Made by a program: the position numbers and the translations under genes
Notes under the pieces: model-generated
Told to the model about the DNA's origin: nothing
The model's input: the letters and a program-made list of their open reading frames with translations, nothing else
The model's database searches: none
NCBI RefSeq assembly: GCF_022637415.1
Contig: NZ_CP093340.1
Coordinates: 1,240,001 to 1,304,000 of the forward strand
DNA: 64,000 bases
Direction: 5' to 3'
From: Luteimonas sp. S4-F44
GTDB taxonomy: Bacteria > Pseudomonadota > Gammaproteobacteria > Xanthomonadales > Xanthomonadaceae
In this document: positions 3,197 through 45,765 of the stretch, in pieces
How positions within the stretch are numbered: position 1 is the first letter of the stretch
How the letters are laid out: each line of letters begins with the position of its first letter

Positions 3197-3222
3197 TCCG
3201 CGCCCGCTCGCACGGGCGCGGA
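3197..3222 (-). terminator. Intercistronic hairpin after pstS1
   Basis: A perfect 10-base stem (TCCGCGCCCG with CGGGCGCGGA) and a 6-base loop sit 7 bases past the pstS1 stop codon and 135 bases before pstC. There is no T-run. It therefore looks more like an mRNA-stabilising or partial-termination hairpin, as found after binding-protein genes in other ABC operons, than a full stop. Confidence 0.55.
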
Positions 3223-3229
3223 GGGACCG

Positions 3230-4321: not shown

Positions 4322-4378
4322 GCGCAAGCTCCATGTGGGGGGAGGCGACGCCGCGCGCCGCCGGGGTGCGCTCATGAA

Positions 4379-4396
4379 ATGATGTTTTTGTTACAG
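4379..4396 (-). promoter_or_regulatory. Weak PhoB box before pstS1
   Basis: On the minus strand CTGTAAC and ACATCAT are spaced 11 bases apart with an AAAA spacer, about 60 bases before the pstS1 start. They match the PhoB half-site CTGTCAT at 5 and 4 of 7 positions. The A/T run is unusual in this GC-rich sequence and fits a PhoB site. The match is much weaker than at 5716-5755. Confidence 0.4.
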
Positions 4397-4432
4397 GCGT
4401 ATGACGTCGGGGCCGTTGGCCGATGGGCGGTC

Positions 4433-4454
4433 AAAAAAAAGGGCCCGAAGGCCC
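4433..4454 (-). terminator. Rho-independent terminator after pstS2
   Basis: On the minus strand a GGGCC-TTC-GGGCCC type hairpin is followed directly by eight T residues, about 90 bases past the pstS2 stop. This is a textbook intrinsic terminator. It makes pstS2 a separate transcript from pstS1-pstCAB-phoU. Confidence 0.85.
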
Positions 4455-4545
4455 GTCGAGGAAGAAAGGACGCAGCGCGAGGCCACGGGCCGGCTGGGAG
4501 AGGGCAACCGGCCCGCGGTGTTGCCGGCGCGATGCGTCGAAGGCG

Positions 4546-5580
4546 TCAGTACTGCGCGTTCTGGCTCCAATAGCGCTCGATCTGCTGCACCAGCGACGCC
4601 GGCAACGGCACGTAGCCGAGCTGGCGGGCCTGCTGGCCGCCGTTGGCGTAGACCCAGCGGAAGAATTCCTGCGCATTCTTGGCGCCGGCACGGTTTCTCG
4701 GCTCGCGGTGCATCAGGATGAAATTGGTCGCCGTGATCGGCCAGGCGTTCTCGCCCGGGGCGTTGGTCATGACCAGATGGAAGTCGCGGGTCGAGGCCCA
4801 GTCCGCGCTGGCGGCCGCGGCCGAGAAGGTCTCTTCGCTCGGATTGACGAAGTTGCCCGCGGCATTCTTCAGGCGCGAATAGGCCAGGCGGTTCTGCACC
4901 GCATACGACAGTTCGACGTAGCCGATGCCGCCCTTGATCTGCTTGACGTACGCGGCGACGCCCTCGTTGCCCTTGCCGCCGATGCCGACCGGCCATTTGA
5001 CCGTCGTGCCTTCGCCCACGCCGTTCTTCCACTCCGCGCTGACCTTGGACAGGTAGTTGACGAAGTTGAAGGTGGTGCCCGAACCGTCGGAGCGGTGGAC
5101 GACGGTGATGCGCGCATCGGGCAGCGCCAGGCCGCCGTTGAGCGCGACGATCGCCGGGTCGTTCCAGCGGGTGATCTTGCCCAGGAAGATGTTGGCCAGC
5201 GTGTCGCCGTCGAGCTTCATCGCGCCGGCGGCGATGCCGTCGACGTTGACGATCGGCACCACGCCGCCGATCACCGACGGGAACTGCACCAGGCCGGATT
5301 TCGCCAGATCCTCGGGCGAGAGCGGGGCGTCCGACGAGCCGAAGTCGACGGTGCCGGCCTTGATCTGGGCGATGCCGCCGCCCGAGCCGATCGACTGGTA
5401 GTTGACCTGCTTGCCGGACGCGGCGCGGTAATCGGCCGACCACTTGGTCATTGCCGGATAGACGAACGAGGCGCCGGCGCCGGTGACATCGTTGGCCAAG
5501 GCGGGCGCGGCAAAGGCGCTCGCCAGCAGAGTGGTCAACAGCGCGAGGGTCGCGACCCGGTTCTTGAGCAGTGCGTACAT
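4546..5580 (-). CDS. pstS: Phosphate-binding protein PstS (second copy, soluble)
   Basis: Second phosphate-binding protein, 344 residues from the ATG at 5580, which has an AGGGAA ribosome site. It is closely similar to its neighbour along its whole length, sharing the YQSIGSGGG, DFGSSD and VHRSDGSGTTFNF phosphate contacts. Instead of a lipobox it has a normal Sec signal peptide ending ApalA, with cleavage expected after Ala29, so it should be free in the periplasm or secreted. It has its own terminator and its own PhoB-like box, so it is a single-gene unit. The pair probably arose by tandem duplication. Confidence 0.94.
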   Translation of the reverse strand: MYALLKNRVATLALLTTLLASAFAAPALANDVTGAGASFVYPAMTKWSADYRAASGKQVNYQSIGSGGGIAQIKAGTVDFGSSDAPLSPEDLAKSGLVQFPSVIGGVVPIVNVDGIAAGAMKLDGDTLANIFLGKITRWNDPAIVALNGGLALPDARITVVHRSDGSGTTFNFVNYLSKVSAEWKNGVGEGTTVKWPVGIGGKGNEGVAAYVKQIKGGIGYVELSYAVQNRLAYSRLKNAAGNFVNPSEETFSAAAASADWASTRDFHLVMTNAPGENAWPITATNFILMHREPRNRAGAKNAQEFFRWVYANGGQQARQLGYVPLPASLVQQIERYWSQNAQY

Positions 5581-5640
5581 GAGGTTCCCTGGAGTGATGG
5601 ACGGCTCACAGCGCCGTGCGGCGTATTGCACGCATGCGGC

Positions 5641-5680
5641 ATGACGATCCGGCGTCAATCGCGTGACCGTGCGATGACGC
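5641..5680 (-). promoter_or_regulatory. PhoB-like box for pstS2
   Basis: Read on the minus strand, 5680-5663 gives GCGTCAT-CGCA-CGGTCAC, two 7-base half-sites in 11-base register matching the PhoB consensus at 5 and 6 of 7 positions. A further TCGTCAT lies in register at the 5641 end. The site is about 85 bases upstream of the pstS2 start, as expected for PhoB activation. Confidence 0.5.
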
Positions 5681-5715
5681 CCGCGCGAGATCGGCGCGAC
5701 GCGCCGTCGGGCGCA

Positions 5716-5875: not shown

Positions 5876-7177
5876 ATGCGTCATTCCATCCTGGCCGCGT
5901 CCGTCGCCGTCGCCGTTGCGTCCATTCCCTTCGCTGCTGCCGCACAGTCCCCGCGCGATGCGGAGGTCGCCGCGCTGCGCGCGCAGCTGGCCGAACTTCA
6001 GGCCAAGGTCGACGCGCTGGAAGTGCGCACCGACGCGCAATCGGACATCAACATCGGTACCCAGGAGAGCCTGGACAAGATGGCGACCACGATGCCGGTC
6101 GTCGACACCAAGGGCGGGCTGAAGGTCACCTCGGCAGACAAGCAGTTCGAGTTCTCCGCCGGCGGCCGCCTGCATTTCGACGCCTATGCCTTCGACCGCG
6201 ACCAGGCCTCGAGCACCGGCACCACCGAGTTCCGCCGCGCGCGCATTACGCTGCAGGGCAAGGCCTATGGCTGGGACTATAAGTTCGAGCAGGACTTCGC
6301 GGCCGGCAGCGGCCTGGACGGATTCCGCGACGTCTACATCGCCAAGTCGGCGCTGGGCGGCAAGTTCACCATCGGCCACTTCAAGCCGTACCGCTCGATG
6401 GAAGAGCTCACCAGCTCCAACGAAATCCTGATGATGGAGCGGCCGTTCGCGACCGCCACCGGCCTGTTCAGCGGCCGCCAGTTCCAGCAGGGCGTGGGCT
6501 ACCTGCGTGCCGATGGCAACTACACCGCCGGCCTGTCGGTGTTCAACCTGCGCAGCGCGTCGGGCAGCCGCAATGAGGGCGTCGGTGCGGCCGGGCGCGT
6601 GACGTTCGCGCCGATCAACACCGAGGACAGCACGCTGCACTTCGGCGGCTGGGTCAGCCAGGAGAACCTCAACCAGGGCTCGGCGGACTTCTCGGCGACG
6701 GCCAACTATGCCGGCCGCCGCGGCCCGTCGCAGACCATCGCCACCACCACCGGCGCCAGCCGCAACCAGGTCACCGCGGTCGGTGTCGAGGCCGCGGGCT
6801 CGTTCGGGCCGCTATTCTTCCAGGGTGAGTACGCCAATGCCACGTTCGGCCAGCCGGTCGGCCCCGATCAGGATGTCGCGACCTGGTACGTGCAGGGCAG
6901 CTGGCTGCTCAACGGCGGCCACAAGGCCTACAAGCCGGGCAATGGCATCTTCGCCTCGCCCAAGGTCGCCGACCGCGGCCTGTGGGAGCTGACCGCGCGC
7001 TACGACACGATCGAAAACAAGGACGTGCGCAACATGGACGTCAGCAGCTGGATCGTCGGCATGAACTACTACGTCAATCCGAACCTGCGCTTCATGTTCA
7101 ACTATACCAAGGGCGACAACACGCTCACCGGCGATGAGACCGGGCAGTACGCACTGCGCACGCAGTTCGCGTTCTGA
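5876..7177 (+). CDS. Phosphate-selective porin of the OprO/OprP family
   Basis: Outer-membrane anion porin, 433 residues. The signal peptide is MRHSILAASVAVAVASIPFAAAAQ, cleaved around residue 22. A short periplasmic coiled coil follows (residues 28-45, AALRAQLAELQAKVDALE), then a trimeric beta-barrel of alternating residues that ends in the aromatic ALRTQFAF, the usual Omp85 recognition end. The family lets phosphate or polyphosphate cross the outer membrane during starvation. It is divergent from pstS2 and preceded by tandem PhoB boxes. OprO versus OprP specificity cannot be told from sequence alone. Confidence 0.92.
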   Translation: MRHSILAASVAVAVASIPFAAAAQSPRDAEVAALRAQLAELQAKVDALEVRTDAQSDINIGTQESLDKMATTMPVVDTKGGLKVTSADKQFEFSAGGRLHFDAYAFDRDQASSTGTTEFRRARITLQGKAYGWDYKFEQDFAAGSGLDGFRDVYIAKSALGGKFTIGHFKPYRSMEELTSSNEILMMERPFATATGLFSGRQFQQGVGYLRADGNYTAGLSVFNLRSASGSRNEGVGAAGRVTFAPINTEDSTLHFGGWVSQENLNQGSADFSATANYAGRRGPSQTIATTTGASRNQVTAVGVEAAGSFGPLFFQGEYANATFGQPVGPDQDVATWYVQGSWLLNGGHKAYKPGNGIFASPKVADRGLWELTARYDTIENKDVRNMDVSSWIVGMNYYVNPNLRFMFNYTKGDNTLTGDETGQYALRTQFAF

Positions 7178-7196
7178 TCCACGCCCGTTGTGTCAT

Positions 7197-7232
7197 GCAT
7201 GCGGCCCGCGGCGAACGCCGTGGGCCGCATGC
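7197..7232 (+). terminator. Hairpin terminator after the phosphate porin
   Basis: A 16-17 base-pair stem (GCATGCGGCCC to GGGCCGCATGC, one G-T pair) begins 20 bases after the porin stop codon and is followed by GTTTGG. The stem is very stable but the T-run is short. Confidence 0.65.
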
Positions 7233-7412
7233 GTTTGGGCGACTGCGATCAGGGACATGCGCGCACGACATGCCGACAGGGCGGATCGGATGCGCAAGGG
7301 ATGCGTCGCGGCCTGCGGCTGCGGTTAGCATGGCGGTCCGGCGCCGCGGGGGCGGTGCCGTCGCCGGCCCGTCCGTTGTGCGGGCCTTCGTTCCGCAGTC
7401 CCGGGGAGTCTT

Positions 7413-9041
7413 GTGAGTACGCAATCCCACGTTTTCCGTCTGTTGCAGGCGGCATTGGCCGCCGTCGTCCTGTTGCCGGTGCTGGCGTCCGCCCAGGCCA
7501 TCGAGCCAGTCGACCTCGATGTCGTGGCCAAGATCCGCCACGAGGCCTTCCATCGCTCGCAGGCCGCCGCCAATCTCAAGGAACTCACCGAGACCGTCGG
7601 GCCGCGGCTGACCAATTCGCCGGCCTATGCGCGTTCGAGCGAATGGGCGCGCGACAAGCTGCGCGGCTACGGCCTGAGCCGGGTGCAGGACGAGGTCTAC
7701 GATCCGGCGTTCGGCCGCGGCTGGGACTTCCGCGCCTCGCGCGTGGAGATGATCGCGCCGCGCGAACTGCCGATCCACGCCTTGCCCAAGGCCTGGACCC
7801 CGGGTACCGAAGGCCCGGTCGAGGGCGAGGTGGTGCTGGCGACGTTCAAGACTCTCGAGGACATCGACAAGCAGCGCGGCAAGCTTGCCGGCAAGATCGT
7901 GCTGCTGGATGAGGCGCGCGCCTACAAGCCGGCCGACAAGCCCGATTTCCGCCGCTACACCGAGGAAGACCTCGGCGAGCTACAGACCTTCCCCGTGCCG
8001 CAGGACCCGGCCGGCGACGCGCAGGACAAGCGCCTGGAGGAGTACCGCAAGCGCCAGGTGCTCAACCGGGCGCTCAACACGTTCTTCGCCGAGGAAGGGG
8101 TGCTGGCGACACTGTCGATCAGCTCCTGGGACAACGGCATCGTCCGGGTGATGGGCGGTGGTGCGCGCAAGGCCGGCGAGCCGGTTGGCGTGCCGGATCT
8201 GGTCGTCGCTGCCGAGCACTACAACCAGTTGGTGCGCGCGGTCGAGCGCGGACAGGCGCCGCGGTTGCGGATCGATGTCGATGCGCGCTTCACCAGCGAC
8301 GGTGACCTGCCGGCCAGCAACACCTTCGCCGACCTGCCGGGCACGTCGAAAGCCGATGAACTGGTGGTCATCGGCGCGCACCTCGACTCCTGGCACACCG
8401 GGACTGGCGCGGCCGACAACGGCGCCGGCGTGGTCGTGATGATGGAGGCGATGCGCATCCTCAAGGCGATCGGCGTCCAGCCCCGGCGCACCATCCGGAT
8501 CGCACTGTGGGGCGGCGAGGAGCAGGGCTTGCACGGCTCGGCCGGTTACGTTTCCAGGCACCTGGCGGCCTATCCCGAGCCGACCGATCCCGAACAGCGG
8601 GCGCTGCCGCGGTCATTCCAGCGCGGTACCGGTCCGCTGCAGCGCCAGCGCGGCTATGACCGCTTCTCCACGTACTTCAATTTCGATAACGGCACCGGTC
8701 GCATCCGCGGCATCTATGCGCAGGAGAACCACGCCGCGGTGCCGATCTTCCAGGCATGGTTGGCGCCGTTCGCCGATCTGGGCGCAAGTATCGTTACCAC
8801 GCGTAACACTGGCGGTACCGACCATCTGTCCTTCGATCGCGTCGGCTTGCCGGGCTTCCAGTTCGTGCAGGACCCCGCCGACTACTTCAGCCATGTCCAC
8901 CACACCCATCTGGACACCTACGACCACGTGGTGCCCGAGGACCTGAAACAGGCGGCGGCGATCATCGCCTCGTTCGCCTATCACGCCGCGATGCGCGAGC
9001 AGCGGTTGCCGCGCAAGCCGTTCGTGGAACGCGACGAGTGA
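7413..9041 (+). CDS. Secreted M28-family zinc aminopeptidase/carboxypeptidase
   Basis: Predicted exported metallopeptidase of 542 residues, resembling the carboxypeptidase Q branch of M28. The start is GTG, 4 bases after GGGGAG. An N-terminal signal peptide ends near Ala28. A protease-associated insert spans roughly 100-280. The di-zinc site is visible as HLD (about 323-325), D335 in AADNGAG, the EE pair at 369-370 in GGEEQG, D470 in GGTDH and the His cluster HVHHTHLD near 494-500. It would release single amino acids from peptides in the periplasm or medium. It stands alone between two hairpins. Confidence 0.9.
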   Translation: MSTQSHVFRLLQAALAAVVLLPVLASAQAIEPVDLDVVAKIRHEAFHRSQAAANLKELTETVGPRLTNSPAYARSSEWARDKLRGYGLSRVQDEVYDPAFGRGWDFRASRVEMIAPRELPIHALPKAWTPGTEGPVEGEVVLATFKTLEDIDKQRGKLAGKIVLLDEARAYKPADKPDFRRYTEEDLGELQTFPVPQDPAGDAQDKRLEEYRKRQVLNRALNTFFAEEGVLATLSISSWDNGIVRVMGGGARKAGEPVGVPDLVVAAEHYNQLVRAVERGQAPRLRIDVDARFTSDGDLPASNTFADLPGTSKADELVVIGAHLDSWHTGTGAADNGAGVVVMMEAMRILKAIGVQPRRTIRIALWGGEEQGLHGSAGYVSRHLAAYPEPTDPEQRALPRSFQRGTGPLQRQRGYDRFSTYFNFDNGTGRIRGIYAQENHAAVPIFQAWLAPFADLGASIVTTRNTGGTDHLSFDRVGLPGFQFVQDPADYFSHVHHTHLDTYDHVVPEDLKQAAAIIASFAYHAAMREQRLPRKPFVERDE

Positions 9042-9047
9042 TGCGGC

Positions 9048-9079
9048 GACGCGGGCCGGCGTGTGCGCCAGCCCGCGTC
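9048..9079. terminator. Hairpin between convergent M28 peptidase and nth genes
   Basis: A 9-base stem GACGCGGGC/GCCCGCGTC with an inner GGCG/CGCC pairing lies just past the peptidase stop and is followed by TTC. It is the only strong inverted repeat I noticed in the 150-base convergent gap. Confidence 0.5.
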
Positions 9080-9190
9080 TTCGGTCGATCGCGCGGCCGG
9101 TCTCTCCCGTCATCCTGCTTTCCGTCATGTCCGTCGGGGCGGACGCCACCGGCGATCGTGGAGGACGCGCGCTTGGCGAGGGCGGCGCAG

Positions 9191-9883
9191 TCAGTCCGGC
9201 GTGCCCGGTGTCTTGTCCTTGAACCGGCACAGATCGCGGATCACGCACTTCGGACAGTCGGGCTTGCGCGCCTTGCAGGTGTAGCGGCCGTGCAGGATCA
9301 GCCAGTGGTGCGCACCGAGCAGAAATTCTTCGGGCACCACCCGCAGCAGCCGGTCCTCGACCGCGCGCACGTCCTTGCCCGGCGCCAGGCCCGTGCGGTT
9401 GGACACGCGGAAGATGTGCGTGTCGACGGCGATCGCCGGTTCGCCGAACACGGTGTTGAGCACGACGTTGGCGGTCTTGCGGCCGACACCGGGCAAGGCC
9501 TCGAGCGCCGCGCGATCGTGCGGGACCTCGCCGCCGTGCTGCTCGACGAGGATCCGGCAGGCGGCGATGACGTTCTTGGCCTTAGCGTTGAACAGCCCGA
9601 TCGTCGCAATGTGGCGCTTGAGGCCGTCTTCGCCCAGGTCGAGGATCGCCTGGGGGGTGTTAGCGACCGGATACAGCCGCCGCGTGGCCTTGTTGACGCC
9701 GACGTCGGTGGCCTGCGCCGACAGGATCACCGCGATCAGCAGCTCGAACGGCGTGGTGTATTCCAGCTCGGTCTTCGGCTCGGGATCGAGCGCGCGCAGG
9801 CGCGAGAACAGCTCGTGGATCTCGGCCCGGGTCAGGGTCGGTCCGCGGCGCCGGGACGGGGAGGGCTGGGCGCCGTCGCTCAT
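9191..9883 (-). CDS. nth: Endonuclease III (DNA glycosylase/AP lyase)
   Basis: Removes oxidised pyrimidines from DNA and nicks the abasic site in base-excision repair. It has 230 residues. The helix-hairpin-helix LPGVGRKTA carries catalytic Lys136, and VDTH carries the essential Asp154. The 4Fe-4S cluster ligands are Cys203, 210, 213 and 219 with exact C-x6-C-x2-C-x5-C spacing. Its ATG overlaps the stop of the preceding small gene (ATGA). It is third in an operon with an enoyl-CoA hydratase and a hypothetical gene. Confidence 0.97.
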   Translation of the reverse strand: MSDGAQPSPSRRRGPTLTRAEIHELFSRLRALDPEPKTELEYTTPFELLIAVILSAQATDVGVNKATRRLYPVANTPQAILDLGEDGLKRHIATIGLFNAKAKNVIAACRILVEQHGGEVPHDRAALEALPGVGRKTANVVLNTVFGEPAIAVDTHIFRVSNRTGLAPGKDVRAVEDRLLRVVPEEFLLGAHHWLILHGRYTCKARKPDCPKCVIRDLCRFKDKTPGTPD

Positions 9884-28619: not shown

Positions 28620-28695
28620 GCCGGAATAGCTCAGTTGGTAGAGCGGCGCATTCGTAATGCGTAGGTCGTAGGTTCGATTCCTATTTCCGGCACCA
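28620..28695 (+). tRNA. tRNA-Thr (anticodon CGT)
   Basis: A complete 76-base cloverleaf. The acceptor stem is GCCGGAA/TTCCGGC. The D arm is AGCTC...GAGC. The anticodon stem is GCGCA/TGCGT with loop TTCGTAA (anticodon CGT, reading ACG). The T-loop is GTTCGATTC and CCA is encoded. It is followed within 9 bases by a strong terminator, and by a region of foreign character, so its 3' end is a plausible integration site; no second copy of the 3' end was seen in the window. Confidence 0.97.
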
Positions 28696-28703
28696 TGTTT
28701 ATC

Positions 28704-28741
28704 AAGCACTTAGGCCGCCTTCGGGCGGCCTAAGTGCTTTT
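28704..28741 (+). terminator. Terminator after tRNA-Thr
   Basis: A perfect 16-base stem beginning AAGCACTTAGGCC, with a stable TTCG tetraloop, runs from 28704 to 28739 and ends in TTTT. Confidence 0.9.
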
Positions 28742-28949
28742 CGGGAAGGCGTCCGAACACGGTTCGAACACGAACCGTCAGTGCCTTGAGCATTCATGCG
28801 GTTTGAATCGGAAAGATGGCAGCGCCGCCTCGCGAGACTTGGCCAACCCAGAGTGGTCCTTTCCGAGCCCTTCCGTCTCACCTCGCGAGAGAGCGACCCA
28901 TCACAGTAGACAACCTAGACCTGCACGAGGCTTCCCTCCCGAGCTGCAA

Positions 28950-28982
28950 TGGATACAATCTGGATACACGCTGTGTATCCAG
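28950..28982 (+). promoter_or_regulatory. Operator of the restriction-modification operon
   Basis: The 10-base perfect inverted repeat CTGGATACAC/GTGTATCCAG (28960-28982, spacer GCT) is preceded by a third, direct copy of the half-site TGGATACA at 28950. A -10-like TACAAT at 28954-28959 lies inside the first half-site, and the AGGTG ribosome site of the next gene overlaps the last. Binding here would block both transcription and translation start. The adjacent ribbon-helix-helix protein is the obvious ligand. Confidence 0.65.
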
Positions 28983-28990
28983 GTGCGGCA

Positions 28991-29194
28991 ATGCACAATC
29001 CATCAAGTGGTCTAAGGATTCGGGTCGATCTGAAGCTGAGGCAGGAGTTCCTAGATGCCTGTCGTAGCCAGGATCGAGTCGCCGCTCAGGTCCTCAGAGA
29101 CTTCATGAGGAGCTATGTGGCCGAGTACTACGAGGGCGCGCAGGCAACTCTCTTTGAAATCGCAGCAAATAAGAATGGAAAGAAGGCTCTATGA
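28991..29194 (+). CDS. Small ribbon-helix-helix DNA-binding regulator
   Basis: A 67-residue protein with the layout of a ribbon-helix-helix repressor: strand GLRIRVDLKL (about 7-16), helix A (about 17-30) and helix B AAQVLRDFMRSYV. The ATG at 28991 is chosen over one 14 codons earlier because it has AGGTG upstream and because the operator would otherwise be coding. Its stop overlaps the methyltransferase ATG (ATGA). Lower GC than the core marks it as acquired. It is probably the controller of the methyltransferase, an analogue of R-M C proteins, though it could instead be an antitoxin-type protein. Confidence 0.75.
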   Translation: MHNPSSGLRIRVDLKLRQEFLDACRSQDRVAAQVLRDFMRSYVAEYYEGAQATLFEIAANKNGKKAL

Positions 29195-31047
29195 GTGCCC
29201 ATAAGAAAATTAAGACGCTTAGCTTGTTCTCCGGCGCGGGTGGCTTGGACATTGGCTTCCACAACGCCGGGTTTGAGATCGTCGGCTGCGTTGAGCTTGA
29301 GTCTGCTTACTGCAAGACGCTCGAGGCGAACTCGGGGACGGGCAAGTTCTTCGGTGGTCAGACGAAGGTGTATTGCACTGACATTCGCGAGTTCGATCCA
29401 AAGCCTTACGCGAACTCGGATATCGAATGCGTCATCGGTGGCCCTCCTTGTCAGACCTTCTCAGCGGCGGGGCGTAGGTCCGGAGGAGTGTTGGGTACCA
29501 TTGATGCACGCGGACGCCTCTTCGAGTCCTACTGCCGCATCTTGCGAGTGATAAAACCGAAAGTCTTCGTTTTCGAGAACGTTTACGGTCTGCCGGGCGC
29601 CAATGGTGGTGGTCCCTGGCGGGAGATCTGCAAGGCATTCTCTGCGCTTGGTTATGAGCTGAAGGCCGAAGTTGTCGACTCGGCAGACTATGGCGTGCCA
29701 CAGCATCGAGAGCGCCTAATCATCGTCGGCTACAAGCATGATGAGTTGGATTTCGCTTTCCCTGAGCCGACGCACGGACCCGATTCCAGTTCTGGAAAGG
29801 GGCTTATCACTGTGCTGGATGCAATCTCTGATCTGCAAGATGATGACGAGCCATATCACGAGTTCGATGGCTTGTATGGCCATCTTTTGCCTCTTGTGCC
29901 TGAGGGGTTGAACTACTCATTCTTCACGCGGGAGATGGGGTACCCGAAGCCATTCTTTGCGTGGCGCTCCAAGTTCCATGATTTTTTGTACAAGGTTGAC
30001 CGTGGTTCTCCCTCACGCACCATAAAAGCCCAGCCCGGGAAGTTCACTGGTCCGTTCCATTGGAAAAACCGACATTTCAATGTCGCCGAGCTAAAGCGGC
30101 TGCAGTCGTTCCCGGACAACTACGAGATTGCTGGCTCCTACGGAAAGGTAGTGGAGCAGATCGGAAATTCCGTGCCTCCGAAGCTAGCGGAAGTGGTGGC
30201 GATTTCGGTGCGTGAGCAGCTGCTGCGGCCACGCCGTACTCTCACTTACCCAGTGAGGACGCCTGGTTTTGAGTCAACTTTCAGGCAGCGACAGCGAGAG
30301 AGGACTAACCATTTCAAGAAGGTCGCCGCAGACGAGATTGCTAAGCGGTTCCCGAATGTTTTGAAGTTCGAAACGCCAAAAGCGGAAGCTATCGAGAATT
30401 ACTTCGTGGGTTATGAGAACAACTTCACGAAGCACACGCTTCCGGCCATGCAGGACATGGAGTTGGGACGAACATACTACTGTGTCAACGAGCGGCGTAA
30501 TGGCGAATTAATTACGCTGGACGTGAGTCCAGTGGGCGGACAGAAGCGTGGCGCCAAGAAGGTCACTATCGAGATTTTGGGGCTTTCAAAGTACTTGCTT
30601 GATGTGGATAGGCTTGAGTGTACGGCTCAGCTCAATAGTTTCGAGGACCTCTTTAGGGTTTGGAGCATTGTTGAGGGAGCGCTAACAAAGGGGAGTCAGT
30701 TCTACACGCTGATTGACATTTACGGGCACTACGCAAACCGCGGAGACACAGTCAGGGTGAAGACCGCCTTTGCAGGTCGAAAGAAATCGCTGCTAGAAAG
30801 CGCCATCGAGTTCTTTGGCTGTTCGGAGAACTCGGGAGCCTTCATGACTCAGAAGGCCGTTGCGGACATTCTTGGGGCCAAGAAATCTGAGATGTCGGAC
30901 TTGATTTCTCAACTCCGTGCCATGCGCTGGGATGTGCGGTCTCCAAAAACTCATCCAACCATCCAGCATGATTCCATTCTTTGCACCTACCCGTTCCCCC
31001 TCCTATCGGGGAAGGCTCAGCTTGAAAGAAAGGTCAGCTTGAGCTAG
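29191..31047 (+). CDS. DNA (cytosine-5-)-methyltransferase with C-terminal extension
   Basis: Modification enzyme of a type II system, 618 residues. C5-methyltransferase motifs are in order: I LFSGAGGLDIGF (12-23), IV GGPPCQTFS with catalytic Cys87, VI ENV (129-131), VIII QHRER (171-175) and X QIGNSVPP (323-330). The target-recognition region between VIII and X is short. Residues about 345-618 form an extra domain I do not recognise, with no obvious nuclease motif. Codon use and GC differ from the core: bases 30601-30660 hold 29 G/C, against 41 in 47461-47520. It is translationally coupled to the regulator and convergent with the HNH gene. Confidence 0.93.
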   Translation: MSAHKKIKTLSLFSGAGGLDIGFHNAGFEIVGCVELESAYCKTLEANSGTGKFFGGQTKVYCTDIREFDPKPYANSDIECVIGGPPCQTFSAAGRRSGGVLGTIDARGRLFESYCRILRVIKPKVFVFENVYGLPGANGGGPWREICKAFSALGYELKAEVVDSADYGVPQHRERLIIVGYKHDELDFAFPEPTHGPDSSSGKGLITVLDAISDLQDDDEPYHEFDGLYGHLLPLVPEGLNYSFFTREMGYPKPFFAWRSKFHDFLYKVDRGSPSRTIKAQPGKFTGPFHWKNRHFNVAELKRLQSFPDNYEIAGSYGKVVEQIGNSVPPKLAEVVAISVREQLLRPRRTLTYPVRTPGFESTFRQRQRERTNHFKKVAADEIAKRFPNVLKFETPKAEAIENYFVGYENNFTKHTLPAMQDMELGRTYYCVNERRNGELITLDVSPVGGQKRGAKKVTIEILGLSKYLLDVDRLECTAQLNSFEDLFRVWSIVEGALTKGSQFYTLIDIYGHYANRGDTVRVKTAFAGRKKSLLESAIEFFGCSENSGAFMTQKAVADILGAKKSEMSDLISQLRAMRWDVRSPKTHPTIQHDSILCTYPFPLLSGKAQLERKVSLS

Positions 31048-31053
31048 TTCATC

Positions 31054-31082
31054 GGCGCCGGATGGGAGTTTCCGCCGGCGCC
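31054..31082. terminator. Hairpin between convergent methyltransferase and HNH genes
   Basis: The 8-base stem GGCGCCGG/CCGGCGCC with a 13-base loop fills the 34-base gap and touches the stop codon of the HNH gene. It could end both transcripts. Confidence 0.55.
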
Positions 31083-32074
31083 TATTCTGCCCATGCGTAT
31101 TTGCCTTCATAGTGCGCATAGCGGTTTTCGAACATTTCACGCCGAGGCCTATGGGTCGGTTGCGTGGGAGGCTCCAGTCGCTCGCGGGTTGACTCGACGA
31201 AATGCCTCGTGCCCACGTTCGTGCGGGCCTCCTCCAGAAGCGAGGGGTGAAGTCGAATCGCCTTTGTTGCAGGATCAACCCAGATAAGGTGCTGGTCGAA
31301 GGCGCCGTGATGGTTGTGGCATAAGCTCAGGCCGTTCCAGACCTCATCCGTGGAACCAGGCGCTTCCACCGGGAAGATGTGCGCTCCTTCGAGCAGGTTG
31401 GAACCAATGCCGCACATCGCGCAGGTGTAGGCATAGGCTGAACGGATCTTTCGCCCAGCACCTGCTTTCCGGACCAGGATCTTGACTGCCTTCGTAGCGC
31501 GCGCCGCAGCGGCAGCCATTGCCGCCGGTTGATCCTGTGGTGTGTCTGCTGCACCGGATGCAGATGCGGCTTCAACCATCTGCACAACAGACAGCATCTC
31601 GCCTGCACGAACCTGTTCTATAAATGCAGGGAACAGAGCTGGAAGGAAGGCGTATATCTTTTCGCCAGTGTTGGACTCGTATACGGCCCAGCCGTTCGCC
31701 CTAGCCTCTGCAAGAATTCTCTCGTGAAACAGAATCGAGAAACGAGTAGTTCTACCTAGACGGGTACCCCCATCTATGGCGACAAACACACTTGGCTGAG
31801 CTGAGTGGTCTAGTCCGAGCAGGATGGGAGTTGCTGTTCCATTGAGGTCTGAGACAGCGGGGCGCGGCTCGCTGGCGGGGTTCTGAAACCTCTTCTCGTA
31901 TGGCTTTCTAGCGTGCGAAGAGACGCTAGATACATGCAGGGCGACGTTTACGTTGCCAGCTTGCGTCTGAATAATCAGGCTGCCAGGCCAGCCGTTGCCG
32001 GGGTCTGCATTGCCAATGACAAGCGGGCCAAGCAGGTCGGCAGCCGTTCGGAATTTCTTAGTTCGTTGGGTCAT
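31082..32074 (-). CDS. HNH endonuclease, probable restriction partner
   Basis: A 330-residue protein. The C-terminal HNH module has CAMC (Cys218, 221), then EGAHIFPVE (His232), WNGLSLCHNHHGAFD with Asn247 and His253-256: two zinc pairs and the catalytic His-Asn-His. The N-terminal 200 residues, including an Ala-rich linker near 165-195, are unrecognised and may read the target. An ATG at 32074 (GGGA upstream) is preferred over a TTG 12 codons earlier. Pairing with a cytosine methyltransferase in convergent orientation suggests a type II restriction enzyme. Confidence 0.82.
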   Translation of the reverse strand: MTQRTKKFRTAADLLGPLVIGNADPGNGWPGSLIIQTQAGNVNVALHVSSVSSHARKPYEKRFQNPASEPRPAVSDLNGTATPILLGLDHSAQPSVFVAIDGGTRLGRTTRFSILFHERILAEARANGWAVYESNTGEKIYAFLPALFPAFIEQVRAGEMLSVVQMVEAASASGAADTPQDQPAAMAAAAARATKAVKILVRKAGAGRKIRSAYAYTCAMCGIGSNLLEGAHIFPVEAPGSTDEVWNGLSLCHNHHGAFDQHLIWVDPATKAIRLHPSLLEEARTNVGTRHFVESTRERLEPPTQPTHRPRREMFENRYAHYEGKYAWAE

Positions 32075-32110
32075 TCCCAAAGAATGAACCACGAATAGGG
32101 AGGCACACAA

Positions 32111-32442
32111 GTAGCGCTTCGAGGTGGGTCACACGGCCTCGCCAGGCAGCCCGTGTCGCGTCCGGGTCCGCACGGCCTGATACCGAGCAGCCCGGACGAA
32201 ACCGGACGACCCGGACTCATCGGGGAGTCCGGGTGCAATGCTGGTATCAACGCGCAAGCACCTCTGGCAGTTTTGATTCGTCGGCGCCACCAGCCGCCGA
32301 CGCCAGGCTTTCGGCGGCCTACATGAGTCGAGACCCGCCCCCGACTGAGGGGAGCAAACGGGCCCATCTCTGCGACGCAAAGCAGGTAGTCCCCGCACGG
32401 CACGTCGCCGGGCGGGGATCGCACCTGCACGGAGTCCAGAAG
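32111..32442. other. Gene-free stretch upstream of the excisionase-like gene
   Basis: GC rises again to core level. It holds a perfect hairpin CCCGGACT/AGTCCGGG (32210-32233) and no supportable gene. It probably contains the promoter for the HNH gene on the minus strand and the leader of the small helix-turn-helix gene on the plus strand. Confidence 0.5.
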
Positions 32443-32634
32443 ATGTCCTACGAACCGAAGAAGTTCTCCCACGCTGAACTCGCCGAGCTGCACGCACTCC
32501 CCGACGACTTGCTGCTGACCGCCCAGGAGGCGGCGGCCTTGTTGCGCCTGAAGTACGGCACGTTGGCCTGGTATCGCTGCCAGGGCGGCGGCCCGGCGTT
32601 CACCCGAGTCGCGACGTACCCACGCTTTCAGTAG
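32443..32634 (+). pseudogene. Excisionase/AlpA-like helix-turn-helix gene, cut off by an IS element
   Basis: It starts MSYEPKKFSHAEL and carries the beginning of a MerR-like excisionase fold: LLTAQEAAALLRLKYGTLAWYR (read as helix, turn, helix), then GGGPAFTRV where the wing should follow. The frame stops at codon 64, inside the left end of the IS element at about 32628, so the wing and C-terminus are missing. Such proteins control excision of integrative elements, which fits a decayed island next to tRNA-Thr. The missing part was not found beyond the IS. Confidence 0.6.
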
Positions 32635-32656
32635 CGGAGCTGTTTGGAGTCCGTGT

Positions 32657-33194
32657 TCATCGTAGCGGCTTTGCCGCAAGTTGTTTCGCATAGGCGGCGG
32701 GCGTCAGCCCGCCGATGCCTTTCTTGGGTCGCTCCTCGTTGTACTCCCGGCGCCAGCGCTCGATCTCCGTGCGGGCATGTAGCAGCGTCGGGAACCAGTG
32801 TTCGTTGAGGCACTCGTCTCGCAGACGCCCATTGAGCGATTCGACGTAGGCATTCTGGTTCGGCTTGCCTGGCTGGATCAACCGCAGCGTCACGCCTCGT
32901 TCGTGCACCCACGCCACCATCGCCCTGCCGCAGAACTCCTTGCCGTTGTCGGTCCGGATCACTTGCGCGAGACCATGGTTGAGCGCCAGACGGTCAAGGC
33001 ATGCCCACGCCGTAGCGTTTGTGACGGTGCGCCAGCGCCTGGATCTGTTCCCGCAACTCGACGTTACGATCCGCACGCGGTGTGTAGCGAAGCGCGCTCG
33101 CACTCATGCCAACGACCCGCAAGGCGCGCCGCTCGCACAATCCCTTGCTTGCCGTGTAGCGCACCTGCTCGCGGCGGGCCGGTGCGCTCACCAT
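32657..33194 (-). pseudogene. IS3-family transposase OrfB, internally deleted
   Basis: The N-terminal piece (33194 to about 32997) carries the HTH_21-type start, ending HRHKRYGVGMP. The C-terminal piece is in a different frame and carries the second catalytic Asp in RTDNGKEF and the Glu region ESLNGRLRDECLN. The middle, with the first catalytic Asp, is missing, and the join near 32997 shifts frame. No functional DDE transposase can result. Confidence 0.85.
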
Positions 33195-33451
33195 TTTTTT
33201 TGCAGCACGTCCTTGATCACTTCGTTTTCAAGCACCTGCTCGGCCAACAGCTTCTTCAGCCGGGAATTCTCCGTCTCCAGCTCCTTCAACCGTTTGGCCC
33301 CGGACACGTTCATGCCGCCGAACTTGCTGCGCCACAGGTAGTACGACGCCTCGCTGAAGCCATGCCGACGGCGCAGCTCCTAGACCGGCAGGCCGGCCTC
33401 GGCCTCACGCAGGAAGCCGATGATCTGTTCTTCGCTGAAACGCTTCTTCAT
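33188..33451 (-). pseudogene. IS3-family transposase OrfA with internal stop
   Basis: It reads MKKRFSEEQIIGFLREAEAG, then LPV and a TAG at codon 24 (33380-33382), then continues in frame as ELRRRHGFSEASYYLWR to a leucine-zipper-like C-terminus ending LQKKW. Relatives have Lys at the stop position, so one base change (AAG to TAG) killed it. The A8 run at 33194-33201 is where frameshifting to OrfB would occur. Confidence 0.88.
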
Positions 33452-33502
33452 GTCCAATCTCCGGATCGTTGGGGATTGGACTCCAAACCAGGCTGCTACT
33501 CA

Positions 33503-34008
33503 ATTGCGGGGGACGTCGGTCGTCCCCGCCCGAGATGCCCCCACAATGATCCGCTCCCCTATACTTCGCCGGACCCGATGTGTTCCGGCCCGATGCCCGC
33601 GCGAGCGACCGCGACGATCAAGTAGCAACGCACGGACGCGCTAGGCACGCCCGTTGCGGTGACCAACGCATCCAACGCCTTGTCGAGAGCAGCGAGTACG
33701 AGCCCTATGAGCAGCTAGTGGAGCTGCTAGTTTTGGTCTAACACCCAGCTTGCACTAGTGGTCAAATCCCGCCGGCAGGCCGTGATCTCCGCGAGTCAGG
33801 GCTCTTCCAAAGTCACCGCCAGCCCGTCATCAGTGCCACCAGCGGCATGCCGGCACGCTTTGGACCCCTCGAATGCGGAGACGCTGGGTGCTAACGTCGG
33901 TCAGGTGCTTGCTCAGATCAACACTGCAGTAAATGCTCTTTGCGCGGCAGCATTTGGTTTGTCGCGCGTATGGAAGGCGAGGGCAGGCTTGGATTGTAGG
34001 AGGTAGGC
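33503..34008. other. Scarred intergenic region before the ATP-grasp gene
   Basis: It contains the broken copy of the deoxyribosyltransferase start (33546-33604) and, at about 33660-33741, a short frame reading QRLVESSEYEPYEQLVELL before a stop. That frame looks like the tail of a lost protein rather than random sequence. No intact gene is visible. The last 11 bases hold the strong ribosome site of the next gene. Confidence 0.5.
33546..33604 (+). pseudogene. Fragment of the nucleoside 2-deoxyribosyltransferase gene start
   Basis: The 59 bases from ATGATCCG to GCCCGCGCG repeat the first bases of the gene at 36406 with a few substitutions and one extra base near position 13, which breaks the frame. 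Similarity ends at about 33604. Together with the intact gene it makes a direct repeat 2.86 kb apart that brackets the ATP-grasp cluster. Confidence 0.85.
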
Positions 34009-35115
34009 TTGGAGACAGACGATGGGCGCGGTGCGCGCCGTGACGATGCCGCCGCGGGCACGCGACGTGTGCTGATCCACACCGTGGAAGGCGATTTCCA
34101 TGCGGCCGTGACCGGGCATGCGCTGCGGTTGCGAGGGCATGAGGTGGTGCGCTGGCGCGGTGATCACTATCCCGAGTTCAGCGCCAGCACGGTGCGCTTC
34201 GGACGCGACGGCATGCAGGGAACGCTGGTCTGCGACGGGCGCACGGTGTCGTCGGATGCGGTCGATGTGGTCTGGTATCGCCGGCGGCGTCTGGTGTCGT
34301 CGCCGGATTACGTGGATCCGCGCGACCAGGCGTTCTGCACCGAGGAGCTGCGGATGGCGGAGCGCTCGCATCCCGAGGCCTTCGCCGATGCCTTCTGGAT
34401 CAACCCGCCGGCCGCGTCCCTGCTGTGCGAGGTCAAGGCGCACCAGTTCCGTCATGCGCTGGCGGCCGGGCTCGCGGTGCCGCGCACATTGATCAGCAAC
34501 GACCCGGCGACGATCCGGAACTTCATCCTCGAGGTCGAGGACTGCATCTACAAGCCGCTCGGCGGCTATATCTGGAAGGAAGACGGGGCGAGCCTGAAGA
34601 CTTACACCGCGAAGGTTGCGATGGACGATCTCCCGTCCGACGCGCTGTTGCGCGCGACGCCGGGCATCTTCCAGGAGAAGGTCGCCAAGGCGTACGAGGT
34701 GCGGGCGCAGTTCTTCGGGCACAGTTGCTTCGCGATCAGGATCGACTCCAACACGCTCGAAGGCGGCGATCTGGACTGGCGGCTCGACCAGAGATCGATC
34801 CGGCGTTGCGAGCCGGCGCCGTTGCCGGCCAAGGTCGAGGCGGCCTGCATCGCGCTGATGGCGCGGCTGGGGATCGTGAGCGGGGGATTCGATTTCATCG
34901 TGACCCCGGAGGGCAACTGGCAGTTCCTGGAGGTCAACGAGGCGGGCCAGTTCTTCTTCATCGAGTCCTGGTGCCCGGACCTGCCGGTACTCGATGCGTT
35001 CTGCCAATTCATCGAAGCCGCGCGTGCGGATTTCAGGTATTCGGCGCCCGGGACGCCGATAACTTTGACGCAGGCCACGGTTTCGGCCTATGAGCACGGG
35101 CTAATCTCGAAGTGA
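34009..35115 (+). CDS. ATP-grasp RiPP maturase (MvdD/graspetide-synthetase-like)
   Basis: A 368-residue ATP-grasp ligase resembling the enzymes that join side chains of a precursor peptide by ester or amide bonds (graspetides, microviridin type). The pre-grasp domain is at 20-125 with the family VWYRR (88-92). ATP-grasp signs are IYKPLGGY (Lys182), FQEKVAKAYEVR (Glu230, Arg232), DWR (256-258), GFDFIV (Asp295) and FLEVNEAG (Glu308, Asn310 for magnesium). The start is TTG, 5 bases after a perfect AGGAGG; no better in-frame start has one. A precursor-like gene follows 111 bases later. Substrate and bond type are inferred from the family. Confidence 0.85.
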   Translation: METDDGRGARRDDAAAGTRRVLIHTVEGDFHAAVTGHALRLRGHEVVRWRGDHYPEFSASTVRFGRDGMQGTLVCDGRTVSSDAVDVVWYRRRRLVSSPDYVDPRDQAFCTEELRMAERSHPEAFADAFWINPPAASLLCEVKAHQFRHALAAGLAVPRTLISNDPATIRNFILEVEDCIYKPLGGYIWKEDGASLKTYTAKVAMDDLPSDALLRATPGIFQEKVAKAYEVRAQFFGHSCFAIRIDSNTLEGGDLDWRLDQRSIRRCEPAPLPAKVEAACIALMARLGIVSGGFDFIVTPEGNWQFLEVNEAGQFFFIESWCPDLPVLDAFCQFIEAARADFRYSAPGTPITLTQATVSAYEHGLISK

Positions 35116-35167
35116 TGCGCGAAGTGCAAGGAATCGCAAGGGCCGCCGAGCGCGGCATCTTTCGACG

Positions 35168-35186
35168 TCGCGGCGGTGTGCCGCGA
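35168..35186 (+). promoter_or_regulatory. Hairpin between maturase and precursor genes
   Basis: The perfect 7-base stem TCGCGGC/GCCGCGA with a GGTGT loop lies midway in the 111-base gap. It could be a processing site or stabiliser that lets precursor mRNA outlast maturase mRNA. That role is inferred. Confidence 0.35.
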
Positions 35187-35226
35187 TCGTGATGTGGTGG
35201 TGTCCCATCCAACCAGAGGAGTGGTT

Positions 35227-35421
35227 ATGTCCATCAAGTCTGAAGCTCGTACGGCGGTGGCTGCGGAAGGCCGGGTGTTGGCGCGTGTGCTGTCCCGCGA
35301 GGAGATCGCGCACGTCAGTGGCGGGGCTGGTGCGTTGGCCGAACCGACCGATTCGTGGGTCGACAACGGCACCTGCACGCCCAAGAGCGATCCGCCGCTC
35401 GTGTCGGATCCGCATCTCTGA
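35227..35421 (+). CDS. RiPP precursor peptide, predicted substrate of the ATP-grasp maturase
   Basis: A 64-residue peptide with GAGGAG 7 bases before the ATG. Residues 1-33 look like a leader: an acidic-basic helix and then LSREEIAHVSGG, a double-glycine end (Gly32-Gly33) of the kind removed by peptidase-transporters. Residues 34-64 look like a core rich in possible crosslinking partners: Thr41, Ser43, Thr49, Thr51, Lys53, Ser54 and Ser60 against Glu39, Asp42, Asp46, Asp55 and Asp61, with one Cys50 and several Pro. It lacks the PFFARFL leader helix of microviridins. A long hairpin follows directly. I know no named family for it. Confidence 0.72.
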   Translation: MSIKSEARTAVAAEGRVLARVLSREEIAHVSGGAGALAEPTDSWVDNGTCTPKSDPPLVSDPHL

Positions 35422-35461
35422 ACCATCGTGCGTCCGCGTCTGACGATCACGCGGGCGCCGA

Positions 35462-35490
35462 TCCTGGCGGCGATTCCATCGCCGCCAGGA
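35462..35490 (+). terminator. Strong hairpin after the precursor gene
   Basis: A perfect 13-base stem, TCCTGGCGGCGAT with ATCGCCGCCAGGA, and a TCC loop begin 40 bases after the precursor stop and are followed by CGTCTTCGTT. It would end or stabilise the precursor transcript and lower expression of the next gene. Confidence 0.7.
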
Positions 35491-35512
35491 CGTCTTCGTT
35501 GGGAGTGATCGC

Positions 35513-36217
35513 ATGCAGGCGCGTCTTGCGGGGGCGTTGCTGGTGCTGGTCTGCGATGCCGCACTGGCCGTGACGGGGACGCCATCCCCGTCCGATCCCT
35601 ATATCGAATTTCTGTGGTCCAAGACGCCCGAGGGCGCGTTGGCCAGACAGGAGACGCGGTCGTTCGTGCTCGGCGAGCGCTTCGGGCATCAGGTCTGCGT
35701 CGCGGTACTCGATGCAGACGCCACAACATCGGGGCTGACGATCGAGATGCGTGACACGGCGGGGCGGGTGGTCGCGCAGCAGGCGCATCCGGATTTCGAT
35801 GGCAGCAAACGCTGCTTTCCCGCGCAACTGCCCGCGGACGCGACGCCGGGGACCTGGCGCGTGGTCGTCTATCTGGATGGCGCAGCGGCGCCGGCCGGCA
35901 GCCGCGAGGTCGAGGTGTATCCGACACTCGATGCGCTGATCGCCGCCACGCCACAGGACATGCCCTATGTGCTGGGGCGTCCGAACTACGACGCGGCAAT
36001 CGCGCCCGAAGCGTTTGTCGGTGAGCTGGCCTGGGTCATGCACATCGCACCCGACGGCAGCGTGGATCGGGTGGAGATCGAACGTGCCGAGGGCATCGGC
36101 CTGAAGATTCAGGACCGCGCGATTCGCGCCGGTGAGATTTCGCTGTTCCCGCCGCGCTCGGGACCCGAATCGACCTCCACCTTCCGCCGGCAGCTGTCGT
36201 TCCGGAACGACGAGTAG
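35513..36217 (+). CDS. Secreted protein of unknown function next to the RiPP cluster
   Basis: A 234-residue protein with a signal peptide (about 1-19, ending ALA). The N-terminal half, about 28-140, starts IEFLW and looks like a beta-sandwich (SGLTIEMRDTAGRVV, GTWRVVVYLDG). The C-terminal part, about 150-234, begins YVLGRPNY and has VGELAWVMHIAPDGSVDRVEI, which resembles the beta-hairpin of TonB C-terminal domains. GGGAG precedes the ATG. A clear paralogue lies at 45061-45765. It could bind or protect against the peptide product, but nothing in the sequence proves a link beyond position. Confidence 0.78.
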   Translation: MQARLAGALLVLVCDAALAVTGTPSPSDPYIEFLWSKTPEGALARQETRSFVLGERFGHQVCVAVLDADATTSGLTIEMRDTAGRVVAQQAHPDFDGSKRCFPAQLPADATPGTWRVVVYLDGAAAPAGSREVEVYPTLDALIAATPQDMPYVLGRPNYDAAIAPEAFVGELAWVMHIAPDGSVDRVEIERAEGIGLKIQDRAIRAGEISLFPPRSGPESTSTFRRQLSFRNDE

Positions 36218-36405: not shown

Positions 36406-36978
36406 ATGATCCGTTCCCTGTACCTCGCCGGACCCGATGTGTTCCGGCCCGATGCCCGCGCGCGCGGGACTGAGTTCAAAGCGCTGTGCGCGCGCTTCGG
36501 GATCGAGGGCTTGTATCCGCTCGACCAGGACGTGCCGTCGGCGCTCGTCGATCCGGGCGATCAGGCGCGGTGGATCTACCGCGCCAACATCGGCCTGATC
36601 GAGCGCGCCGACGCGGTGCTCGCCAATCTGGATTTCTTCCGCGGGCCGGAGCCAGACAGCGGCACCTGTTTCGAGGTCGGCTATGCGGTCGCGCGCGGCA
36701 AACCGGTGTACGGCTACATCCCCGAGGGCGGCACGCTGGCCCAGCGCATCCGCCAGCGACATCCGCACGCGATCGGCCCCGACGGCGTGCTCGACGCGCA
36801 CGGCTGGAACATCGAGGCGTTCGGCTTGCCGCTGAACCTGATGCTGTCGGTGCCGGCACCGCTGGTGGTCGGCGATGCAGCGATGGTATTGGTGCAGTTG
36901 ATGCGTTGCGGCGAGACGCCGCTGCCGGCGGAGATGCCTCGCGCGTCCGAATGTCGGATTGACGTCGCAGGTGTCTAG
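36406..36978 (+). CDS. Nucleoside 2-deoxyribosyltransferase family protein
   Basis: A 190-residue cytoplasmic enzyme family that swaps or hydrolyses bases on 2'-deoxynucleosides. The start YLAGPDVF is the substrate-binding beta-strand motif. DSGTCFEVGYAVARGKPV holds the catalytic Glu, and ANLDFFRG carries a conserved Asp. The first 59 bases are present again, mutated, at 33546, which shows that this gene's start took part in the rearrangement that placed the ATP-grasp cluster here. It is convergent with the diguanylate cyclase gene. Confidence 0.88.
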   Translation: MIRSLYLAGPDVFRPDARARGTEFKALCARFGIEGLYPLDQDVPSALVDPGDQARWIYRANIGLIERADAVLANLDFFRGPEPDSGTCFEVGYAVARGKPVYGYIPEGGTLAQRIRQRHPHAIGPDGVLDAHGWNIEAFGLPLNLMLSVPAPLVVGDAAMVLVQLMRCGETPLPAEMPRASECRIDVAGV

Positions 36979-45060: not shown

Positions 45061-45765
45061 TCAGGGAACAGGTCGGATGTCGTAAGGCTGCCGGAACTGG
45101 CGCAGCGGCTTGGCCGGGTCGGGTCCGATGCGGTAGAGCCGGGCGGCCGCTTGGCCCGCGGTCCGCAACCGCGTCGCGGCCAGTCCTTCTGCGACTTCGG
45201 TCTGGACGTCCACGACGTGGCCGTCCGGCCCGAAGCCCAGAACCCAGACGAGCCGGCCCACATAGTCGACCGGCGCGAGGTCGTCTGGATAATTGGTACG
45301 TCCGTGGACGTACATGCGGTCGCCTCGTGCGAACGCAGCCGAGGCCAGGGACTCGGCCACCTCGATCGTCGTCTGCGCCGCGATCTGCCCATCGAAACGC
45401 AGGACGATGCGACGCAGGCCGGGTGTCACGCCCAGCGCGGCGAGGTCGATCGTGCCGCAGCGGACGAACTTCGATTCGGTTCCAGGTTCGGTGCCTGACC
45501 ACAGCGTGTGGCGGCCGGCGCTGTCGTCGATCTCCAGCCGAATATCGACCGCGCGCTGCGGGAAGCCCTGCGTCTTCCAGCAGGCCAGGTGCGGTGTCTC
45601 GGGATGGCGCAACAGGCCCTGGGCGACCGGGCGGGCGCCGGACCCCGCCACCGGCGCGTTCCAGAGAAACTCGATGTGGCCGAAGATCGGCGACTGCGCC
45701 TCGTCGTCCGCGGTGGCGTTCGACATCGACGCGGCGAGTACCAGGGCGAACATCCATGCGCGCAT
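45061..45765 (-). CDS. Secreted protein, paralogue of the RiPP-adjacent protein
   Basis: A 234-residue protein with a signal peptide (MRAWMFALVLAASMSNATA). It has the same layout and length as the protein at 35513: HIEFLW near the N-terminus, then a sandwich-like domain, then YVHGRTNYPDDLAPVDYVGRLVWVLGFGPDG, which aligns with the paralogue's YVLGRPNY and VGELAWVMHIAPDG segments. No maturase or precursor lies beside it. It stands alone between the MarR operon and a cytochrome-assembly-like gene. Function is unknown. Confidence 0.78.
   Translation of the reverse strand: MRAWMFALVLAASMSNATADDEAQSPIFGHIEFLWNAPVAGSGARPVAQGLLRHPETPHLACWKTQGFPQRAVDIRLEIDDSAGRHTLWSGTEPGTESKFVRCGTIDLAALGVTPGLRRIVLRFDGQIAAQTTIEVAESLASAAFARGDRMYVHGRTNYPDDLAPVDYVGRLVWVLGFGPDGHVVDVQTEVAEGLAATRLRTAGQAAARLYRIGPDPAKPLRQFRQPYDIRPVP

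Follow-up and report, generated by a model that had tools for sequence, protein, structure and literature searches.

A graspetide-type gene cluster of Luteimonas with alternating threonines and aspartates in its precursor core and a secreted companion protein

What does a small ATP-grasp gene cluster with an unfamiliar precursor peptide produce, and what is the purpose of the secreted protein encoded beside it? The question is raised by a locus of Luteimonas sp. S4-F44, located in a 64,000-nucleotide stretch (hereafter the window, whose numbering is used unless indicated otherwise) at positions 1,240,001 to 1,304,000 of its 3.69-Mb single-contig genome (NZ_CP093340.1, contig C1). Three co-directional plus strand genes at 34009-36217 encode a maturase, a precursor and a secreted companion. 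An initial annotation, made by a model from the sequence alone, had proposed that an ATP-grasp gene, a 64-residue peptide and a secreted protein form here a cluster for a graspetide, that is, a ribosomally synthesised and post-translationally modified peptide (RiPP) made by an ATP-grasp enzyme. The three open reading frames (ORFs) are all present at those positions, and the graspetide interpretation is supported by the family scores of the maturase and by a co-conserved precursor. We consider, with a probability of about 0.7, that the cluster is a graspetide (omega-ester RiPP) system in which the peptide would carry two macrolactones and be exported in trans, and in which a periplasmic companion would protect the producer.

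The maturase carries the Pfam MvdD pre-ATP-grasp domain PF21068 (37.5 bits, above the cut-off of 27). Among NCBIfam models the best score was obtained with TIGR04187 (228 bits), followed by MvdD (162) and MvdC (161), compared to 18 for RimK and 17 for glutathione synthase. Structures related by sequence to the enzyme include 5ig9, AMdnB (7m4s) and CdnC (7mgv), and residues D256-W257-R258, E308 and N310 are unchanged across 19 homologues. An MvdC/MvdD-like enzyme of the graspetide-synthetase type is therefore supported, as judged by sequence comparison. Some relatives are named ‘glutathione synthase/RimK-type ligase-like’ in databases, and the gene could in principle encode an ordinary RimK/glutathione-type ligase lying next to an unrelated peptide. 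The family scores led us to reject this identity; with a co-conserved precursor and C39 exporters at the loci (see below), we find this explanation extremely unlikely. The initial annotation had named affiliation with such ligases as what would refute it, and the maturase sides with the graspetide types, on family scores and not on a rooted tree.

Indeed, the maturase tree was midpoint-rooted without a RimK outgroup, and long branches come together in parts of it. The window maturase falls in a group of 29 rows (support 95/88), together with its relatives L010-L016 and L064. A neighbouring group of 42 rows (100/100) holds a 17-row THAT-type subclade, of which 16 rows are associated with THATGPNGDDP-like cores, and 25 further rows, mostly from Rhodanobacteraceae, whose precursors were outside the comparison. 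The maturase of Luteimonas sp. RC10 (L004) is 93% identical to the window's, and an enzyme of more than 90% identity is found in 3 of 52 Luteimonas genomes, the window's included.

The precursor is composed of a 33-residue leader ending in EEIAHVSGG and a 31-residue core, and is recognised by none of the Pfam and NCBIfam models. With 10 aligned precursors as the query, 31 proteins were retrieved at E<=10, and 28 passed E<=1e-3. Of these 28, 27 (P0121-P0147, including the window's own) share an ungapped core T-x2-W-x-D-x3-[C/S]-T-x3-D, present in 25 differing versions. T1, W4, D6, T11 and D15 are invariant in all 27 cores without any insertion or deletion, position 10 is occupied by Cys (22/27) or Ser (5/27), and Lys13 and Ser/Thr14 occur in 19 and 22 cores, respectively. 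The other four of the 31 matches are devoid of the core motif; among them, P0148 (E 8.6e-5) contains a half-motif, CSPKTD. The initial annotation had drawn the core as pairing Thr, Ser or Lys with acidic residues and as including a Cys: the Thr/Asp part holds throughout, whereas Lys and Cys vary. A Lys-based lactam as a constant feature and Cys as an essential core residue were both rejected on these counts.

The precursor is a real gene, as it has relatives next to related maturases in genomes of other genera. Such neighbouring peptides were the check suggested by the initial annotation, which their absence would have refuted, and a short precursor with a conserved leader does accompany the synthetase in many genomes. 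The exceptions to this pairing are L124, with a maturase remnant only, and L084, without maturase match within about 1.5 kb. L124 (genome G231) looks like a degenerate version in which the maturase is a short remnant and the HlyD gene is split, precursor and companion being retained; L084 (G665, a genome of another family) carries the precursor of L009 with its half-motif core. Between the window and RC10, the ratio of nonsynonymous to synonymous divergence of the precursor is about 0.2 (0.055/0.275), indicating purifying selection. The precursor is present at E <1e-30 in the same 3 of 52 Luteimonas genomes as the maturase; a fourth (G144) gave a weak match only, to a THAT-type precursor (L087). 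With a single-sequence query, a precursor match was obtained in 6 of 395 genomes drawn from the family, the window's included, and one Stenotrophomonas version (P0124) was found on 234 contigs. Neither the core motif nor the companion was observed at the weak precursor matches L083-L090, of which L083 is the L014 record again.

How might these residues be connected? The invariant donors and acceptors alternate along the core (T1, D6, T11, D15), and since only these are invariant and they alternate, two tandem ester rings are the simplest pairing. This suggests a T1-D6 ester, closing a ring of about 20 members that encloses the invariant Trp, followed by a T11-D15 ester, about 17-membered. In L009, L014 and P0148 the half-motif [C/T][T/S]P[K/Q]TD occurs on its own, the T1-W-D6 half being absent, and this persistence supports T11-D15 as a putative self-sufficient ring. 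The half-motif arose in 0.087%, 0.018% and 0.041% of shuffles of these three cores, respectively, and was present in none of the 7 other non-family cores, bearing in mind that the pattern was picked after the sequences had been seen and that looser forms are common in shuffles.

Tandem rings would depart from precedent. The rings of characterised graspetides are described as interlocking or as lying one within the other (PMC13097080). In fuscimiditide, the Thr3-Asp22 pair encloses Thr7-Asp18 (PMC12291112); donors precede acceptors there, in each Gra-4 repeat (PMC9576775) and in THAT-type cores too. By analogy, T1-D15 could enclose T11-D6, or just one ester could be formed, with the cluster and its chemistry otherwise the same. 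Nested pairing would however require a donor located C-terminal to its own acceptor, and the half-motif is retained alone in three cores; we regard this connectivity as unlikely, while serious enough to be kept in view. In another scheme, the Cys or Ser at position 10, the only two residues seen there, would act as a third donor, linked natively to D6 or D15 through a thioester or an ester. Graspetide synthetases can indeed make non-native thioesters (PMC13097080; PMC12291112). Only two acids are invariant, though, and each already has an invariant Thr to match it; a thioester bond would moreover be labile, and the role of Cys may lie in disulfides. This third linkage therefore appears very improbable.

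The leader follows the pattern RVL(A/G)RxLSREE..VxGG, with R16, V17, L18, L22, S23, G32 and G33 invariant across 28 aligned rows and no amino acid change in residues 16-33 between the window and RC10. The EEIAHVSGG ending and the absence of the PFFARFL helix, both pointed out in the initial annotation, were confirmed. A similar leader, RVLGRxL..E....VxG[G/A], occurs beside related maturases together with very different cores (L010-L016 and L064), including DSGT-repeat cores in the Lysobacter-like bins L010, L011 and L013. These three loci carry 7, 5 and 6 precursors (L010 at 6900-9467), all with the RVLGR leader in common; some contain DSGTTADSGTT repeats, in which acceptors and donors alternate as well. 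The myxococcal maturases L015, L016 and L064, of the same tree group, are associated with PGRVLGR leaders and cores of the type LDFTGG..QSDGD or PDLTGG..QTDGD.

Each of the 10 distinct loci with this core has the companion, and a scan of 60 further loci detected it at none of them. It is missing from the six loci L009-L014 in spite of their similar leader type and maturase group, which ties it to the core. The initial annotation had rightly placed the secreted protein next to the other two genes and missed its constancy as a part of the cluster. An AlphaFold model of the companion was obtained with a mean confidence (predicted local distance difference test) of 87.9. The macroglobulin half filled the fold search with the whole model, so that the C-terminal half was predicted separately; the two predicted folds match a macroglobulin (MG) domain and a TonB/TolA C-terminal domain (CTD), respectively. 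Both are here joined in one protein of 234 residues, a length that leaves no room for a TonB-like anchor and spacer. At the sequence level, PF01835 (MG2) scored 18.2 bits, under its cut-off of 32.8; PF03544 (TonB CTD) was unlisted for the window's companion, the best of four homologues reaching 16.9 bits (L108) against a cut-off of 24.6. The gene also stands alone in many genomes, and no graspetide maturase was detected in the 20 such genomes tested. This persistence without the maturase resembles that of orphan immunity genes, and producer immunity is the most likely role.

Alternatively, the companion could be a partner in biosynthesis or export, an adaptor or a periplasmic chaperone, comparable to the partner-dependent graspetides of 2026. 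The order maturase-precursor-companion is the same at each of the 9 distinct loci whose maturase is intact, and rosaritide depends on a partner protein (PMC13097080). We hold this role possible but unlikely: the apparent signal peptide (by eye) would keep the companion out of the cytoplasm where the maturase acts, the gene endures in genomes lacking the maturase, and a hairpin lies in the gap between it and the precursor gene. All 9 loci examined have a hairpin of 10-20 pairs in this gap, and at 5 of them the following 10 bases contain 5 or more T, both being raw counts without a shuffle control. In the scanned stretch of the window, terminator-like sites are not in excess (2, compared to a shuffle mean of 1.5). 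A distant paralogue of the companion (32%) lies at 45061-45765 (minus strand) near an ffh-like (signal recognition particle) reading frame, and similar distant copies exist elsewhere in the genus.

No transporter lies near the window cluster, as the initial annotation had stated; this holds for the locus and not for its homologues or the rest of the genome. A C39 peptidase-ATP-binding cassette (ABC) transporter and an HlyD-type protein are encoded at 7 of the 10 distinct loci (L005, L006, L007, L008, L122, L123 and L124), and for L005 and L007 Pfam confirmed the domains. No such transporter is encoded at the three Luteimonas loci (window, L004/L126 and L125). The sole C39 domain of the window genome is at C1:1391948, about 115 kb away, in its one THAT-type locus (L003), which includes a maturase and a precursor with the THATGPNGDDP core, which we take to be that of thatisin. 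All three maturase-bearing Luteimonas genomes possess such a locus with a near-identical ABC transporter: that of RC10 (L034) is 98% identical, as is the C-terminal part found next to the precursor of this type in G395 (L131), the only part within that stretch. Since the single C39 exporter of the genome sits in this locus and is so conserved in RC10 and G395, export of the window peptide probably occurs in trans.

From gene content, conservation, co-occurrence and predicted folds, we infer the following course. The ATP-grasp enzyme would bind the leader through the RVLARVLSREEI segment and phosphorylate core Asp6 and Asp15; attack by Thr1 and Thr11 would then form two macrolactones (-36 Da). 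Cleavage after VSGG would remove the leader, and a C39 peptidase-ABC transporter with its HlyD protein, supplied in trans by the thatisin-like graspetide locus, would export the peptide. In the periplasm, the companion would protect the producer: it would either bind the mature peptide or keep it from entering by a TonB- or Tol-dependent route. A more specific version, in which the two macrolactones are independent and tandem, neither interlocked nor nested, and in which the soluble periplasmic macroglobulin-TonB CTD chimera is a new immunity type, an orphan among non-producers, seems to us rather doubtful.

Several observations weigh against this scheme. The maturase scores remain under the curated NCBIfam cut-offs (350 for TIGR04187, 475 for MvdD and 425 for MvdC). 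The precursor search was seeded with the same family, so that the proportion 27/28 is partly built in and the exclusiveness of the motif overstated. The leader motif Phhx(1,2)h is absent from the precursor, where RVL(A/G)R has no Pro at that place; this motif is found in about half of graspetide precursors and is not obligatory (PMC8939145). The lack of a companion in L009 is weak evidence because its contig is truncated. Companions from graspetide loci do not group as a single clade, linked and unlinked copies cluster no better than by chance (185 of 500 shuffles as low), and unlinked copies occupy conserved places in two genera; a general periplasmic role of the companion is thus possible. 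These linked copies and its presence in 38 of 395 family genomes led us to reject it as a graspetide-only protein. Finally, export in trans presumes that a distant C39 exporter would accept this leader.

Among the closest known systems, the microviridins (group 1; MdnC/MvdD and MdnB/MvdC) have homologous ATP-grasp synthetases and a Thr-to-Asp donor/acceptor logic in common with the window cluster. Microviridins use two maturases and the core TxKxPSDx(D/E)(D/E); the window locus has one maturase, and its precursor has neither this core nor their PFFARFL leader helix. Thatisin and iso-thatisin of Lysobacter antibioticus (group 16 in PMC13097080) would correspond to the THAT-type maturases, in the tree group adjoining the window's. 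Their leaders (R[PV][FLI][AG]R..ARE[L].. in the subclade) are alike, R[P/V][FLI][A/G]R...E[I/V]..[I/V][S/A]GG, and C39 and HlyD exporters are encoded at those loci. In contrast to the alternation in the window core T-x2-W-x-D-x3-C-T-x3-D, two Thr there precede two Asp, and the companion was not found at these loci. With no THATGPNGDDP in its core and a maturase outside the 17-row clade, the window cluster falls outside group 16 on both counts. Fuscimiditide, a graspimiditide, contains two Thr-Asp esters in one core (PMC12291112), as predicted for the window peptide; its order is Thr, Thr, Asp, Asp with nested rings, and a methyltransferase installs an aspartimide.

The class of natural product is a known one, and the fixed core pattern and the companion are apparently its new parts. 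Neither was found described in the accessible text of PMC8939145, PMC13097080, PMC12291112 and PMC9576775, the sequence tables being outside this scope, and literature searches for Xanthomonas/Stenotrophomonas graspetides and for graspetide with macroglobulin gave nothing pertinent. Xanthomonas precursor clusters 70 and 75 were reported with a distinct core pattern (PMC8939145) and, compared by description alone, may be this precursor family. A prior prediction may likewise lie within these Makarova clusters, the 24 groups of Ramesh 2021 or groups 25-43 of Carter 2026.

The cluster lies between a transfer RNA (tRNA) gene, tRNA-Thr(CGT) (28620-28695), and a nucleoside deoxyribosyltransferase gene (36406). 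In the window genome a 5.3-kb island separates tRNA and cluster, and 28620-33607 represents a tRNA-Thr integration hotspot (Table 1). The tRNA is about 0.3 kb from the cluster, with no island, in L125 (G395); at this tRNA RC10 carries another, different island (L004, about 2000-5700), one ORF of which is reverse transcriptase-like by eye; and in G408 (L079), without such a maturase, about 1 kb separates the tRNA from the deoxyribosyltransferase gene. Direct repeats of 51 bp bracket the three genes in the window genome. They were rejected as ends of a mobile unit, because blastn detected no upstream copy in front of the cluster in L004, L125 and L126; the upstream copy thus belongs to the neighbouring island and looks like a recombination scar of it. 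Carriage by plasmids (no precursor match in the plasmid collection) and by phages (just two distant maturase matches, of about 30% identity, in the phage collection) was also rejected. The genome encodes a third graspetide-like maturase (L002, C1:2313491-2314459, minus strand), oriented divergently from a small ORF comprising a leader FRLLSRQLARDLTDTEIDAVAGG and a core TTSRTQLSAQVSAQIIVVDDADA.

Table 1. Features of the cluster and of the adjacent island in the window
Feature	Coordinates	Strand	Remarks
Graspetide synthetase (MvdC/MvdD-type ATP-grasp maturase), 368 aa	34009..35115	+	TTG start, TAGGAGG at 33997-34003
Precursor peptide, 64 aa	35227..35421	+	ATG start, AGAGGAG at 35215-35221
Conserved leader segment RVLARVLSREEIAHVSGG, residues 16-33	35272..35325	+	Presumed recognition by the maturase (helix) and cleavage after the double glycine
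Core motif TDSWVDNGTCTPKSD (T1, W4, D6, C10, T11, D15)	35347..35391	+	Predicted ring-forming part
Hairpin, 13 pairs, terminator-like, precursor/companion intergenic	35462..35490	+	Terminator scan
Companion protein, 234 aa	35513..36217	+	Signal peptide (by eye), macroglobulin-like and TonB/TolA C-terminal-like domains
Companion TonB/TolA C-terminal-like domain, residues 150-234	35960..36214	+	Predicted fold
Nucleoside deoxyribosyltransferase gene, 5′ end, repeat copy	36416..36466	+	94% match to 33557-33607 upstream of cluster
C-5 cytosine methylase (island)	29191-31047		
MTaX1-HNH endonuclease (island)	31082-32110	-	
Transposase pieces with integrase core (island)	within 28620-33607		

If this interpretation is correct, graspetide synthetases would build beads-on-a-string rings besides cages and hairpins, and a rigid 15-residue motif with just five fixed residues would be an attractive engineering scaffold. 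The companion would offer a first way to approach how Gram-negative graspetide producers protect themselves, and would hint at a TonB/Tol-dependent uptake route. A cluster split in this way, with its exporter in another graspetide locus, would imply that mining of single loci can miss exporters and that several precursors may share one C39 exporter.

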